A DNA stretch of 64,000 nt, taken from Bacteroidaceae bacterium (lineage in GTDB: Bacteria; Bacteroidota; Bacteroidia; Bacteroidales; Bacteroidaceae). Below the pieces are notes generated by a model, which worked only from the letters and a program-made list of their open reading frames with translations, was not told the origin of the DNA and ran no database searches. This document shows positions 6,129-32,352 of the stretch, one piece after another. The position numbers and the translations under genes are program-made. The DNA is taken from assembly GCA_017429945.1 (NCBI GenBank), contig JAFRNY010000086.1:23381-87380 (forward strand), written 5' to 3'. How positions within the stretch are numbered: the stretch's first letter is position 1; every line of letters begins with the position of its first letter.

Positions 6129-6147
6129 GTAAAACAAGTTGTTTTAC
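6129..6147. other. Short perfect palindrome beside array 1
   Basis: GTAAAACAA and TTGTTTTAC form perfect 9-bp arms around one base. Almost the same sequence (GAAGTAAAACAA-C-TTGTTTT) lies near array 2 at 24772-24791. It could be a protein-binding dyad or part of a repeated element. Between here and 6284 I see nothing else recognisable. Confidence 0.55.
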
Positions 6148-6284
6148 CTCAGAGCACTTGGCCCTTCCGTCAATAGCCCTTGGCTCTTTTGCCCATAGCC
6201 TCTAAGAATGCAGCAGGCGCCACTCGACCATGTGCCGACAAGGCCCTGGGAAATGCGGATAAACCGACTGTTCCGAAAACAAGA

Positions 6285-6323
6285 ATCCCTGCAACTGACG
6301 CGGTCAGTTGCAGGGATTTTTTA
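6285..6323. terminator. Strong intrinsic terminator between kbl and GH127 genes
   Basis: A perfect 16-bp stem (6285-6300 with 6304-6319) closes on a 3-base loop and is followed by TTTTTT on the plus strand. The minus strand also has T-rich sequence after the stem. It sits between converging genes and probably serves both. Confidence 0.9.
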
Positions 6324-6406
6324 TGATACCACCTAAATTGCATGAGGTAAGAAGTTAAGATGTTCGCACTCTAGTTCCTATACAAAAGAGGACGGTGTTG
6401 ACGTCT

Positions 6407-28053: not shown

Positions 28054-28830
28054 TCAGTTTTCAATGTTTTTCCTAATGCGTGTGAGGTAAGCCGTCATAG
28101 CATCCTCATCGCGGTTGTCGATGATTTGCAGGAGCGTCTTGAGCTCGGTGCGGATGCCTTCCACCTTGGGTTTGGTGTGTGGGTTGAAAAGAATCTCGCG
28201 CAGGAGCGTGTCGTCCTCCGAGAGCACACCGCGGGCTATCTTCATGTGACGCTTGAAGGTGGTGCCCGGGGTGTCCTGATGCTTCATCAGGGCTGAGAAA
28301 ACGAATGTTGAGACGAAGGGAATAGAGAGCGAGTAGGCCATAGTCTCGTCGTGCTCGGCGAACGAGAGCTCTTTGAGGTTGAGGCCGAGGCGTGTGTAGA
28401 GGTCGCGGAAGAAGATGCGCCCCATGTAGTCGCCCTCGTTGATGAGGATGGCATTCTCACGCGAAAGGTCGCCCAGGTTGGCGAAGGTGGGGCCGAACAT
28501 GGGATGGGAGGAGACGTAGCGGTGGCCCGTCCCTTCGTAGTACTCGCGGAAGCCGGTCTTCACGCTGCTGATGTCCGAGAGGATGCAGTCGCGGCCGATG
28601 TGTGGCAAAAGATCGTCGAAGGCCTGGAGTGTGTATTTCAGCGACACGGCATTGATGACCAGTTCGGGGTCGAAAGCATCGACCTCGTCGAGCGCTGTGA
28701 AGCGCTGTGTGTTGTAGAGGAAGCGCATGCGGCGAAGGTCGGTCTCATAGACTGCCACCTCGTGATCAAACGAGAGCAGGTCGACGAAGAACGAGCCCAT
28801 CTTGCCGGCGCCAAGAATAAGAATACGCAT
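28054..28830 (-). CDS. tyrA: Prephenate dehydrogenase
   Basis: A 258-residue Rossmann protein with LGAGKMGSFF at residues 6-15, the ISSVKTGF segment and HPMFGPTFANLGDLS, all typical of TyrA. It oxidises and decarboxylates prephenate to 4-hydroxyphenylpyruvate on the way to tyrosine. It lacks an ACT or chorismate-mutase domain. It is the last gene of a pheA - aminotransferase - DAHP synthase - tyrA operon. A palindromic repeat pair lies in the 167-bp gap before it. Confidence 0.92.
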   Translation of the reverse strand: MRILILGAGKMGSFFVDLLSFDHEVAVYETDLRRMRFLYNTQRFTALDEVDAFDPELVINAVSLKYTLQAFDDLLPHIGRDCILSDISSVKTGFREYYEGTGHRYVSSHPMFGPTFANLGDLSRENAILINEGDYMGRIFFRDLYTRLGLNLKELSFAEHDETMAYSLSIPFVSTFVFSALMKHQDTPGTTFKRHMKIARGVLSEDDTLLREILFNPHTKPKVEGIRTELKTLLQIIDNRDEDAMTAYLTRIRKNIEN

Positions 28831-28997: not shown

Positions 28998-30086
28998 TTA
29001 ATTTTTCATGACCTCCAGCTGCTGCCGCACGCTCTCTTCGTGGATGTGCTCGTAGATATCGCGCACGAACTGAGGGCTCATGCCGCAGAGCGACCCTTGG
29101 GCAGCACGCTTGTCGAGAATCTCGCTGTAGCGGGTGGTCTGCACGACGGTCATATTGTGGAGCTTCTTGTACTCAGCAATCTCACGCGAGATGCGCATGC
29201 GCTTGGTGAGGAGGTCCATGAGGTTGTTGTCGAGTTCATCGATCTGCTTGCGCAGCTGGCTGATGCTCTCGGTGACCTCCACGCTGTCGCGCACGACGAG
29301 GCGGTCGAGGATGAAGTCGAGCACCTCGGGCAGCACCTGCTGTTTGGCATCGCTCCAGGCACAGTCGGGGTTGCAGTGGCTCTCAATCATCAGGCCGTCC
29401 ATGCCCAGGTCCATGGCCTGCTGCGAGATTGGCGCTATGAGGTCGCGCCGTCCGCCCATATGGCTGGGGTCGGTGATGAGAGGCAGCGCCGGGAAGCGGC
29501 GCTTGAGCTCGATGGGGATGTGCCACATGGGCGGGTTGCGGTAGATCTTCTGATCTACGCTCGAGAAGCCACGGTGGATGGCTCCGAGGCGGGTGATGCC
29601 GGCGCTGTTGATACGCAGGAGAGCACCCGTCCACAGCTCGATGTCGGGGTTCACGGGGTTTTTCACTAACACAGGCACATCGACGCCGCGCAGGGCATCG
29701 GCAATAGCCTGCACCGAGAAGGGGTTGGCCGAGGTGCGAGCGCCCACCCACAGGATATCGACACCGGCGGCAAGGGCTGCCTCGACGTGCTCGGGCGTGG
29801 CCACTTCGGTGGCCAGGAGCATACCCGTCTCGGCTTTCACGCGCTGCAGCCAAGGCAGCGCCTCGACGCCTTTGCCTTCGAAGCCACCGGGCTTCGTGCG
29901 CGGTTTCCATACACCCGCGCGGAAAATCTTGACGCCATTGTCGGCCAGCTGGCGCGCGGTGTCCATCACTTGCTCCTCTGTCTCAGCCGAGCAAGGGCCG
30001 GCGATGACGAGAGGGCGTTTCTGTTCTACGCCCGGAAGGGCAAGGGGAGAAAGTGTTAAATCAAGTTCCATATTTTCATTATTCAT
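28998..30086 (-). CDS. DAHP synthase fused to chorismate mutase (type II)
   Basis: A 362-residue bifunctional enzyme. Residues about 25-265 are the KDO8P/DAHP synthase barrel of type I-beta (LVIAGPCSAE, FRAGVWKPRTKPGGFEG, WVGARTSANPF, VKNPVNPD, LPLITDPSHMGGRRDL, ESHCNPD). Residues about 272-355 are an AroQ chorismate mutase (ISQLRKQIDELDNNLMDLLTKRMRISREIAEYKK). This fusion is known in Bacteroidales, where the mutase domain also carries feedback control. It opens and continues the shikimate pathway to prephenate. Start 30086 or the ATG five codons later are both possible. Confidence 0.94.
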   Translation of the reverse strand: MNNENMELDLTLSPLALPGVEQKRPLVIAGPCSAETEEQVMDTARQLADNGVKIFRAGVWKPRTKPGGFEGKGVEALPWLQRVKAETGMLLATEVATPEHVEAALAAGVDILWVGARTSANPFSVQAIADALRGVDVPVLVKNPVNPDIELWTGALLRINSAGITRLGAIHRGFSSVDQKIYRNPPMWHIPIELKRRFPALPLITDPSHMGGRRDLIAPISQQAMDLGMDGLMIESHCNPDCAWSDAKQQVLPEVLDFILDRLVVRDSVEVTESISQLRKQIDELDNNLMDLLTKRMRISREIAEYKKLHNMTVVQTTRYSEILDKRAAQGSLCGMSPQFVRDIYEHIHEESVRQQLEVMKN

Positions 30087-30103: not shown

Positions 30104-31291
30104 TCACTTTTCATTTTTCACTTTAACAATCCTCTCCAGGGCCTCGCGCATGCGCTCCTCCTTGGCACATAGCGAGATGCGTATGTAGCGCTCGCCATTG
30201 GAACCGAAGATGAAGCCGGGGGTGATGAAGACGCGGGCCTCGTGGAGCACACGCTCGGTGAGCTCTTCGACCGTGGCGTAGCTGTCGGGGATGCGCCCCC
30301 AGAGGAACATTCCCGTCTGGCGCGCATCGAAGGTACAGCCAAGCACCTGCATGATCTGCTCGGCAATGGCACGCCGAGGAGCATAAGTGCGGACGTTGGC
30401 CTGGAGGTGCCACTCGTCGGTGTTCGTGGTCAGAGCCTCGGCGGCTGCCAATTGGAGGGCGCGGAATGTGCCGCTGTCGATGTTGGTCTTGACCTTGAGA
30501 ATCCACGTGATGAACTCGGCATTCGTGGCCAGCATGCCTACACGCCAGCCCGGCATATTGAAACTCTTAGACATAGAGTTGAACTCAATGCAGCAGTTCT
30601 TGGCGCCGGGCACCTGGAGGATGCTGAGCAACTCGCCCTCGTTAAGGATGAAGCTGTAAGGGTTGTCGTTGACTATGACGATGCCGTGCTTCTGGGCGAA
30701 AGCCACAAGTCGCTCGTAGGTCTCGCGACGGGCTCGCGCGCCGGTCGGCATATGCGGATAGTTGGTCCACATGAGTTTGACGCGCGAGAGGTCCATGCGC
30801 TCCAGCTGCTCGAAATCGGGCTGCCAGCCGCCAGCCTCCGTGAGGTCGTAGTTCACCACCTCGGCGCCCAACAGGCGCGAGAGAGCAGTGTAAGTGGGAT
30901 AACCGGGATTGGGCACCAGCACGCGGTCGCCGGGGTTGCAGAAGGCGAGCGTCACGTGGAGGATGCCTTCCTTGGAACCTATGAGAGGCTGAATCTCCGT
31001 AGCGGCATCAAGTTCTACGCCATACCAGCGGCGATAGAACGCCGCCATGGCCTTGCGCAGCTCGGGCGTGCCGATGGTGGGCTGATAGCCGTGGCCATCG
31101 GCCTTGACAGCCTCGCGGCAGAGCGTCTCAATGGTCTGGGGGCTCGGGGGCATATCCGGACTGCCGATGGCCAGCGAGATAATGTCGCGTCCCTCAGCAT
31201 TCAGCCGTGCCACCTCTTTGAGTTTGCGGCTGAAGTAGTATTCCTGCACCGATGCCAGACGATCGGCGGGCTTAAATAGATTCTTTTCCAT
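30104..31291 (-). CDS. PLP-dependent aromatic aminotransferase (class I/II fold)
   Basis: A 395-residue aminotransferase with SLAIGSPDMPPSPQ near the N-terminus, NPGYPTY, VNDNPYSF and the PLP lysine in NSMSKSFNMPGWRVGM (about residues 236-251), then RYIRISLCAKEERM at the end. It belongs to the AspC/DapL-like fold group. Position between pheA and DAHP synthase-chorismate mutase makes it the likely transaminase of phenylpyruvate and hydroxyphenylpyruvate. Its start overlaps the end of pheA by 20 bp, which suggests translational coupling. Confidence 0.9.
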   Translation of the reverse strand: MEKNLFKPADRLASVQEYYFSRKLKEVARLNAEGRDIISLAIGSPDMPPSPQTIETLCREAVKADGHGYQPTIGTPELRKAMAAFYRRWYGVELDAATEIQPLIGSKEGILHVTLAFCNPGDRVLVPNPGYPTYTALSRLLGAEVVNYDLTEAGGWQPDFEQLERMDLSRVKLMWTNYPHMPTGARARRETYERLVAFAQKHGIVIVNDNPYSFILNEGELLSILQVPGAKNCCIEFNSMSKSFNMPGWRVGMLATNAEFITWILKVKTNIDSGTFRALQLAAAEALTTNTDEWHLQANVRTYAPRRAIAEQIMQVLGCTFDARQTGMFLWGRIPDSYATVEELTERVLHEARVFITPGFIFGSNGERYIRISLCAKEERMREALERIVKVKNEK

Positions 31292-32114
31292 CTTTGTATT
31301 CTCCCAGAATTTTAAGGTCGGACGTCAGCGGACGAATGGCATCGATGCCTTGAGTGTAGTGAGTATAGTCGCTGTACATTATATCTACGTAGAAAAGATA
31401 TTCCCACTCACGCCCTATGATGGGCAACGACTGTATCTTCGTGAGATTAAGCTTGTAGAACGAGAGCACGGAGAGCACCTGCGAGAGTGTGCCTTCGGCG
31501 TGCTGCAGCGAGAAGACGATGCTGGCCTTGTTGGTCTGACCGATGTCGCGCAGCAGATTGGCCCGCTTGGGCGACGCCACGACGAGGAAGCGCGTGAAGT
31601 TGTGTTTGTTGGTCTCGATGCCTTGCTCCAGCACTTTCATGCCATAGATGGGAGCGGCATCCTTGGAGCAGATGGCTGCTACGCCCCGCATGCCCTGCCG
31701 GCTGATCTCTTCTGCTGCGCCTGCCGTGTCCTCAGCCTCGACGACTTTGATTTCAGGGTGACGGCTGAGGAACTCGCGGCACTGCATGAGGGCCACGGGA
31801 TGTGAGTGTACCTCCCGAATATCGGCCCAGTCGTCGTCGGGCAGGCATACGAACGAATGCTTGATGCGCAGTTTGTGCTCGCCCACGATCGTCACCGGGG
31901 CCTCGCGCAAGAGTTCGTAGTTGTGGAGCAGCGAGCCGGCTATGGTATTCTCGATGGCCGCCAAGCCTATCATCGTAGGGTCTGCAGCCAGCTGCCCGAA
32001 CAGCTGCTCGAAAGTCTGACAGCAGACGAGCTCGATGTCCTCACCCTCGAAATATTCGTGGGCTGCGATGTCGTGGAAGCTGCCTTCAATACCTTGTATT
32101 GCTACATGTTTCAT
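31272..32114 (-). CDS. pheA: Prephenate dehydratase with ACT domain
   Basis: A 280-residue protein with the prephenate dehydratase signatures IQGIEGSFHDIAA (residues 4-16) and the NFTRFLVV loop (TRF) near 185, followed by an ACT domain (about 198-275). The usual ACT motif ESRP, which binds phenylalanine, reads QSLP here, so feedback inhibition may be weak or different. It converts prephenate to phenylpyruvate and is the first structural gene of the aromatic operon, directly behind the attenuator at 32131-32295. Confidence 0.93.
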   Translation of the reverse strand: MKHVAIQGIEGSFHDIAAHEYFEGEDIELVCCQTFEQLFGQLAADPTMIGLAAIENTIAGSLLHNYELLREAPVTIVGEHKLRIKHSFVCLPDDDWADIREVHSHPVALMQCREFLSRHPEIKVVEAEDTAGAAEEISRQGMRGVAAICSKDAAPIYGMKVLEQGIETNKHNFTRFLVVASPKRANLLRDIGQTNKASIVFSLQHAEGTLSQVLSVLSFYKLNLTKIQSLPIIGREWEYLFYVDIMYSDYTHYTQGIDAIRPLTSDLKILGEYKDGKESI

Positions 32115-32130
32115 TGTGGATGTGTTATTA

Positions 32131-32162
32131 AAAGAAAATCCCGCTTCCTTTCGGCAGCGGGA
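32131..32162 (-). terminator. Attenuator terminator before pheA
   Basis: On the minus strand TCCCGCT pairs with AGCGGGA (7 bp, plus an inner CC/GG pair), followed by TTTTCTTT. It lies 16 bp upstream of the pheA start and downstream of the leader peptide. The 5' arm (32156-32166) can instead pair with 32222-32232. Confidence 0.92.
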
Positions 32163-32232
32163 CTTGTATGTTAAGCTTTACTTGTTTCAATTCTCAATCT
32201 TGCAATCTTAAATTGACGCGCCAACTCCCGCT
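32156..32232 (-). promoter_or_regulatory. Antiterminator of the aromatic attenuator
   Basis: AGCGGGAGTTG (32222-32232), directly after the leader stop codon, pairs at 10 of 11 positions with CAAGTCCCGCT (32156-32166). That helix uses the same bases as the terminator 5' arm, so the two structures exclude each other. A ribosome sitting at the leader stop would cover 32222-32232 and favour the terminator. Confidence 0.88.
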
Positions 32233-32295
32233 CTACCTTGTCTGGGTAAAGTAAAAATAAAAATAGGAGTAATAACGGGCAGCGTTGGTTTGCAT
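32233..32295 (-). CDS. Tyr/Phe-rich leader peptide of the aromatic operon
   Basis: ATG 32295 to TAG 32233 encodes MQTNAARYYSYFYFYFTQTR, 20 residues. Residues 8, 9, 11, 13 and 15 are Tyr and 12, 14 and 16 are Phe, so 8 of 9 consecutive residues from 8 to 16 are aromatic. It sits 25 bp downstream of a promoter -7 element and ahead of mutually exclusive hairpins and pheA. This is the layout of a ribosome-stalling attenuation leader. It is too short to appear in normal gene finding. Confidence 0.93.
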   Translation of the reverse strand: MQTNAARYYSYFYFYFTQTR

Positions 32296-32320
32296 GACGT
32301 TTCTTTTGATGTTGCGGGTG

Positions 32321-32352
32321 CAAAAGTAATAGTTTTCGGCGTAACAGCCAAA
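32321..32352 (-). promoter_or_regulatory. Promoter of the aromatic operon
   Basis: On the minus strand TTTG (32349-32352), 20 bp, TACTTTTG (32321-32328): a full match to the Bacteroidota -33/-7 pattern with ideal spacing. The leader ATG is 25 bp downstream. The promoter begins just past the stop of the upstream glycosidase gene. Confidence 0.85.

Follow-up and report, generated by a model that had tools for sequence, protein, structure and literature searches.

The window, by which we mean the whole stretch of 64,000 nt that was analysed (contig JAFRNY010000086.1 of the Bacteroidaceae assembly GCA_017429945.1), carries on its minus strand a pheA gene followed by further genes of aromatic amino acid synthesis, as listed below with the Pfam matches on which the assignments rest.

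31272-32114, minus strand: pheA, prephenate dehydratase, with QSLP in place of ESRP (PF00800, 1.3e-55)
30104-31291, minus strand: class I/II aminotransferase, overlapping the end of pheA (PF00155, 1.3e-62)
28998-30086, minus strand: DAHP synthase fused to chorismate mutase (PF00793 and PF01817)
28054-28830, minus strand: prephenate dehydrogenase-like protein of the tyrosine branch (PF02153, 1.8e-08, residues 49-116 only)

Since pheA, the aminotransferase, the DAHP synthase-chorismate mutase and the dehydrogenase-like gene stand together, the operon covers both the Phe and the Tyr branches. Upstream of pheA the following elements were assigned from the sequence, from RNA folding or from covariation among relatives (basis in parentheses).

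32349-32352, minus strand: promoter -33 element TTTG, 20 nt from the -7 box (sequence)
32321-32328, minus strand: promoter -7 element TACTTTTG, of the form TAnnTTTG (sequence)
32233-32295, minus strand: leader ORF MQTNAARYYSYFYFYFTQTR, 20 codons, with the stop codon TAG at 32235-32233 (sequence)
32248-32274, minus strand: regulatory codon run YYSYFYFYF, with Tyr or Phe at 8 of 9 codons (sequence)
32245-32285, minus strand: region 1, leader coding strand pairing with region 2 in a predicted 1:2 hairpin (fold)
32216-32237, minus strand: region 2, its extent within the predicted 1:2 hairpin (fold)
32222-32232, minus strand: region 2, antiterminator 5' arm AGCGGGAGTTG, beginning directly 3' of the leader stop (sequence, covariation)
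32156-32166, minus strand: region 3, CAAGTCCCGCT, the arm common to antiterminator and terminator (sequence, covariation)
32137-32148, minus strand: region 4, terminator 3' arm GGAAGCGGGATT (sequence, covariation)
32130-32136, minus strand: T-run TTCTTTT of the intrinsic terminator (sequence)

The preliminary description of this DNA had placed a promoter, a Tyr/Phe leader, an antiterminator arm at its stop codon and a terminator sharing an arm with the antiterminator before pheA, and each of these is present at the coordinates listed. The T-run does lie close to the pheA start (ATG at 32114), at a distance of 15 nt by our count and not of 16 bp as first given. In the window, 10 of 11 positions pair between AGCGGGAGTTG and CAAGTCCCGCT, which is located 55 nt downstream, and the terminator hairpin (32164-32137) consists of CCCGCT of region 3 and GGAAGCGGG; the antiterminator would exclude the terminator through the common arm, as expected of a leader attenuator. 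The combination of TTTG and TAnnTTTG fits the consensus of a Bacteroidota-type promoter; among 147 leaders, 108 have TAnnTTTG in the 70 nt preceding the leader start, versus 7 of 147 shuffled controls, and a -33 TTTG was located 17-22 nt 5' of a -7 motif in 55 of the 147. An intrinsic terminator was present between the leader and the first gene in 146 of the 147 leader loci by the script criteria.

For the comparison with near relatives, the best 80 of 583 confirmed PheA relatives from genome contigs were combined with the window (81 loci). From the loci at large, L112-L116 (taken as contigs of L020, L006, L014, L028 and L030) and two loci at contig ends (L134 and L139) were dropped before the counts. 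The check proposed in the preliminary description, that is, a search for a short Tyr/Phe ORF with covarying arms upstream of the pheA genes of relatives, showed conservation: a Tyr/Phe-rich leader was present within 450 nt 5' of pheA in 77 of the 81 near loci (window included), and the named loci include Phocaeicola, Paraprevotella, Prevotella and Alloprevotella. The leader is present in L045, from Phocaeicola vulgatus ATCC 8482. A scan for ORFs that start with ATG, are 10-45 aa long and have 6 or more F/Y in 12 codons found them within 450 nt before pheA in 76 of the 80 fetched near loci versus 24 elsewhere in 525 kb (both strands), and one of these 24 (in L011) was itself a second leader. 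The Tyr/Phe leader before pheA is, as far as these sequence comparisons go, far above chance and deeply conserved. L020 has the leader and the hairpins but no T-run after the terminator stem; its attenuator may be broken or may work differently.

Of the 80 loci, 74 have the aminotransferase downstream of pheA (L011 is counted here, with the gene 3.4 kb away), 71 have DAHP synthase there and 64 have the dehydrogenase; contig or stretch ends cut some of the loci that lack downstream operon genes. In the four near exceptions with no leader at pheA (L005, L007, L019 and L022), no aminotransferase gene followed pheA in the stretch examined, from which it was predicted that the aminotransferase half would bear the leader elsewhere. 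Together with L011, L014 and L017, the other near loci that lack the aminotransferase or have it at a distance from pheA, this gave seven genomes, and all seven had a Tyr/Phe leader, an antiterminator and a terminator before the aminotransferase; in L011, L014 and L017 the attenuator precedes both operon halves. The second complete Tyr/Phe attenuator of L011 (positions 6139-6390) lies about 3.1 kb 3' of the pheA start, before the split-operon aminotransferase.

The pairings were evaluated by shuffling and by covariation. With the terminator arm fixed and the preceding stretch dinucleotide-shuffled (60 shuffles per locus, 146 loci), the observed antiterminator score was reached by 106 of 8760 shuffles (1 of 60 for the window); by locus, the count was 0 of 60 in 122 loci and exceeded 3 in five (L028, L057, L120, L159 and L164). 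For covariation, 49 near loci were aligned, 13 of the 62 non-redundant near loci offered being left out. In the antiterminator (2:3), both-side changes were observed in 7 of 11 pairs (shuffle mean, 3.7), and in the terminator (3:4) in 5 of 9 (shuffle mean, 3.2; 4 of 500 shuffles as high); standard pairs made up 83.8% of the cells in 2:3 and 95.2% in 3:4, and any slide of the partner lowered the count of paired cells. Two further measures of 2:3 did not exceed the control: for additional pair types, 456 of 500 shuffles were as high, and the covariation score was 0.127, compared with 0.129 when the partner was slid by -2. The near group hardly varies in the core GCGG, so that its double changes are mostly found at the helix ends. 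Between families, the core itself changes together on three arms, as in L150 (GCCGGGACT / AGTCCCGGC / GCCGGGACT) and L102 (AGGATTGTG / TACAATCCT / ATCAGGATT); the far-family arms were chosen by the script for complementarity, and thus the shuffle test serves as their control. The antiterminator and the terminator are both conserved and covarying in relatives, apart from the two 2:3 measures given above.

The earlier view that no separate region-1 hairpin exists was not borne out. When the leader and region 2 were folded, at least 5 leader:region-2 pairs were obtained in 145 of 145 loci (a count that has no control of its own), and the 1:2 fold had a median z of -2.35 over the 145 loci, with 109 below -1.5; the window is unexceptional (-20.1 kcal/mol, z -0.9). 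When region 2 was swapped between loci, the own partner did better than the average swap in 139 of 145, and in only 57 of 145 were no more than 2 of 40 swaps as good as the own partner (5 of 40 for the window); from these results, the 1:2 effect is partly generic, with pyrimidine-rich codons set against a purine-rich arm. A search for an ungapped 1:2 helix gave p of 0.05 or below in 16 of 77 loci (0.77 for the window), a less clear picture than that from the thermodynamic fold. We take the 1:2 protector or pause hairpin overlapping the codon run to be real class-wide; for the window it is moderately supported as a predicted structure, and weakly when the window is taken alone.

The behaviour expected with a translating ribosome was modelled by hiding 29 nt in a transcript truncated after the 5' arm of the terminator. 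For the window, a ribosome stalled at any of the eight Tyr/Phe codons is predicted to leave 9-10 pairs of 2:3, and one at the stop codon, masking region 2, is predicted to leave 2 pairs, the full transcript then forming 11 terminator pairs. The 2:3 pairing was formed at half or more of the stall positions in 144 of 145 loci. With no ribosome, 2:3 was the fold of the truncated transcript in 96 of 145 loci, among them the window, so that the order of synthesis must matter; for the genes to be off by default, 1:2 has to form first while the RNA is being made. The leader stop of 89 of the 145 loci is placed more than 8 nt beyond the start of region 2, and with a ribosome parked at the stop in those loci, 2:3 is still possible in 39 (12-nt upstream footprint) or 10 (22-nt footprint); at least 5 pairs of 2:3 were kept in 0 of 56 short-ORF loci versus 39 of 89 long-ORF loci. 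L008, L012, L032 and L045 are examples in which the leader stop lies past region 2, as in many clades. Since such stops occur in many clades, the textbook picture of a parked ribosome does not simply fit them, and in the long-ORF loci region 2 may be masked by a moving ribosome and not by a parked one.

From these data, the following course of events may be proposed. Transcription would start just 3' of the TACTTTTG box. A ribosome stalled in the Tyr/Phe run would open 1:2 and leave region 2 free, and the free region 2 would pair with region 3, by which the terminator would be blocked. A ribosome reaching the stop codon would cover region 2, allowing 3:4 to form and transcription to end at the T-run before pheA, and without translation 1:2 would form first and then 3:4, giving termination by default. 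We consider it very probable that the element is a ribosome-mediated leader-peptide transcription attenuator that senses charged tRNA-Tyr and tRNA-Phe jointly, and a shortage of Phe or Tyr probably switches the aromatic genes on through it. The core of the preliminary description, Tyr/Phe leader-peptide attenuation of the aromatic operon, is in this respect supported by the conserved codons, the pairings and the masking folds.

As for what is sensed, the runs of 134 distinct leaders contain 594 Phe and 542 Tyr codons, both amino acids occurring in 133 of the 134. A Trp codon is present in 22 of the 134 distinct runs, as might be expected if the attenuator sensed all three aromatic amino acids, which DAHP synthase feeds; however, the runs have far fewer Trp codons (22) than Phe or Tyr codons, the window leader has none, and the 1:2 pairing may be what keeps some other codons in place, so that we regard sensing of all three as improbable. 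The Trp codons that do occur may mean that Trp is sensed as well, or may be kept by RNA pairing. Joint sensing of Tyr and Phe is also to be distinguished from two roles of the peptide itself, as a functional small product or as an arrest peptide sensing free Tyr/Phe instead of the codon supply. The Tyr/Phe-rich core is indeed conserved, in far families too, but Y and F interchange, synonymous codons vary within the runs (TTT 443, TTC 151, TAT 237, TAC 305), and the C-terminal end depends on the frame in which region 2 is read; in an arrest peptide, specific residues should be retained. Of the near leaders, about 34 end upstream of the GCGG core or at it, and in about 43 translation continues through it, in different frames (counts good to about one; L006 was misplaced by the script pattern), the same RNA motif being read as different peptide ends (e.g., KVKREFVCVR and CEAVGRM), and the Tyr/Phe codons are conserved while the remaining peptide changes. 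Because the region-2 motif is kept across reading frames, the conserved thing is the RNA and not the peptide end, and a peptide function of either kind is, in our estimation, very improbable. That the hairpin is a plain terminator of the upstream glycoside-hydrolase-like gene (GHL10) with a small ORF arising by chance was rejected with hardly any doubt, for although an intrinsic terminator does sit between that gene and pheA, a promoter-like site is located between the GHL10 gene and the leader, a same-strand GHL10 homologue was found upstream (within up to 3 kb) in only 4 of 80 near loci while the leader is found in 76 of those 80, the leader and arms thus being conserved beside other upstream genes, and the arm complementary to the terminator arm is itself conserved.

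Joint Tyr/Phe attenuators of this kind are widespread in the class. In the phylum-wide sample, pheA was found in 206 of 238 genomes. A pheA match was present in 55 genomes of the same class (own genome included), and 50 of these besides the window were examined upstream; weak in-class matches (G012, G095, G190 and G210) stand outside the upstream count. The leader adjoins pheA in 47 of the 50, among which L159 has no proper antiterminator arm by the script. In the other three (G111, G076 and G194), the leader lies 3.5-3.6 kb upstream of pheA and heads a DAHP-synthase-first operon, with an antiterminator of 9/9 pairs and a terminator, after which comes a homologue of DAHP synthase-chorismate mutase (45-47% identity). 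In G111 (L238), a second, partial match to DAHP synthase-chorismate mutase is located upstream of the leader. The attenuator is thus located before whichever aromatic gene comes first (pheA, the aminotransferase or DAHP synthase).

Within the same genus, the leader was found in 13 of 16 further loci; in L117 it lies about 1.05 kb upstream of pheA, beyond another gene, in the genome of L123 it precedes the aminotransferase, and in G241 (L130) a search of up to 4.7 kb from pheA gave no leader, while a promoter-like motif stands directly before the gene. At the order level, the leader was present in all six loci with upstream sequence (L131-L133 and L135-L137). One assembly, G252, has two pheA genes on different contigs (L128 and L138), each with its own Tyr/Phe leader; the pair reflects either duplication or contamination.

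Outside the class, 39 of the 151 matches were examined, drawn from the better-scoring of those listed (the remaining 112 stand outside the upstream count), and four of them have the leader (L086, L092, L163 and L164). In the PheA tree (59 rows), all four fall among the class members, L163 with L084 (96/88), L092 with L164 (97/87) and L086 with only 82/75, and 17 leaderless out-of-class PheA form one clade (100/98). Transfer of the operon together with its leader would explain this placement, other histories being possible.

The substitution of QSLP for ESRP in PheA, pointed out in the preliminary description, is correct and holds in 81 of 81 near PheA. The first letter is Q (QSxP) in all 49 further distinct PheA of L082-L138, all 11 of L245-L255, all three PheA with a distant leader and all four out-of-class leader-bearers; among the 17 leaderless out-of-class PheA, 16 have ESRP and one has DSIP. 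On the PheA tree, the change between Q and E is a single split. The association is imperfect, in that QSLP also occurs in G241, where no leader was found, and in the PheA of the four split near loci, which have the leader elsewhere. As to the suggestion that attenuation may replace feedback inhibition, QSxP does mark the leader-bearing clade, but the correlation is at the clade level only and G241 has a leaderless QSLP enzyme. In enteric bacteria, attenuation and feedback are both present, and hence the replacement of feedback is not implied. That the joint Tyr and Phe attenuator is the ancestral and main aromatic control throughout this class of gut and environmental bacteria, moving with the first gene of the operon, and that its PheA gave up classical Phe feedback (ESRP to QSxP) is a tentative proposal, which we consider rather unlikely as a whole.

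A covariance model of the element gave a single strong copy in the own genome (E 8.9e-11), the next match being partial (1.4e-3). At E 0.001, matches were found in at least 44 of the 148 genomes of the order, which is a lower bound because the model was built from near relatives and misses leader-bearers such as G268 and G271. Nine of the nine best model loci besides the window have a Tyr/Phe leader, followed by pheA in six, by the aminotransferase in two and by the contig end in one. Four genomes of the same order (G285, G290, G350 and G406) have two or three matches each, and the second copies may control other genes. In the own genome, no His-rich short ORF was found in about 450 nt 5' of the hisG ATG, and there was no match to PF00425 (chorismate-binding) or PF00920 (IlvD) in the assembly, which is 82% complete; auxotrophies or missing contigs are possible reasons.

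No Rfam leader family matched this site at the gathering score. In a relaxed search, the best match was Trp_leader (RF00513; 18.8 bits against a gathering score of 41, E 0.17), and L10_leader reached 17.5 bits (threshold, 44). A T-box riboswitch was considered and rejected, with no covariance-model match at the gathering score or at E up to 1.

Clues to leader-peptide attenuation before amino-acid operons have been given for Flavobacterium psychrophilum, in the accessible sections of PMC9723704, where a structured 5' element with no Rfam match is described before pheA and in other Flavobacteriaceae too; Tyr/Phe codons, the arms, a class-wide spread and the split-operon pattern are absent from those sections. 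For Bacteroides thetaiotaomicron, PMC7366714 reports short ORFs resembling leader peptides in long 5' UTRs (e.g., BT_4401), and shares with our case the suggestion of leader-peptide attenuation, but its main text does not contain the word pheA. Within the accessible parts of the open-licence literature beyond PMC9723704, no Tyr/Phe attenuator before pheA in Bacteroidota was recognised, and an earlier description is possible. The remark that leader attenuation is little described in Bacteroidota is therefore broadly fair, with the reservation that PMC9723704 and PMC7366714 already give leader-peptide clues.

In common gut bacteria, the element would be a concrete and testable point at which Phe and Tyr synthesis is controlled, and it suggests that attenuation of the classical type has long been a stable trait of the class. 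The natural series of leaders, with stops at or well past region 2, should be useful for determining where the ribosome must sit for termination.

The mechanism of attenuation is classical, and the Tyr/Phe pheA attenuator of this class is, on comparative grounds, a well-supported addition to it. A close likeness is to the enteric pheA (pheL) attenuator, which shares a leader rich in the product amino acid, alternative hairpins and a position before pheA. The enteric pheL leader is Phe-rich and is not known to have a Tyr run, whereas the window leader mixes Tyr and Phe, matching a two-branch operon. In the ilvGMEDA and thr leaders, one leader reads several amino acids made by the operon; the attenuator described here resembles them in this reading of more than one amino acid and differs from them in the amino acids read and in the operons governed.
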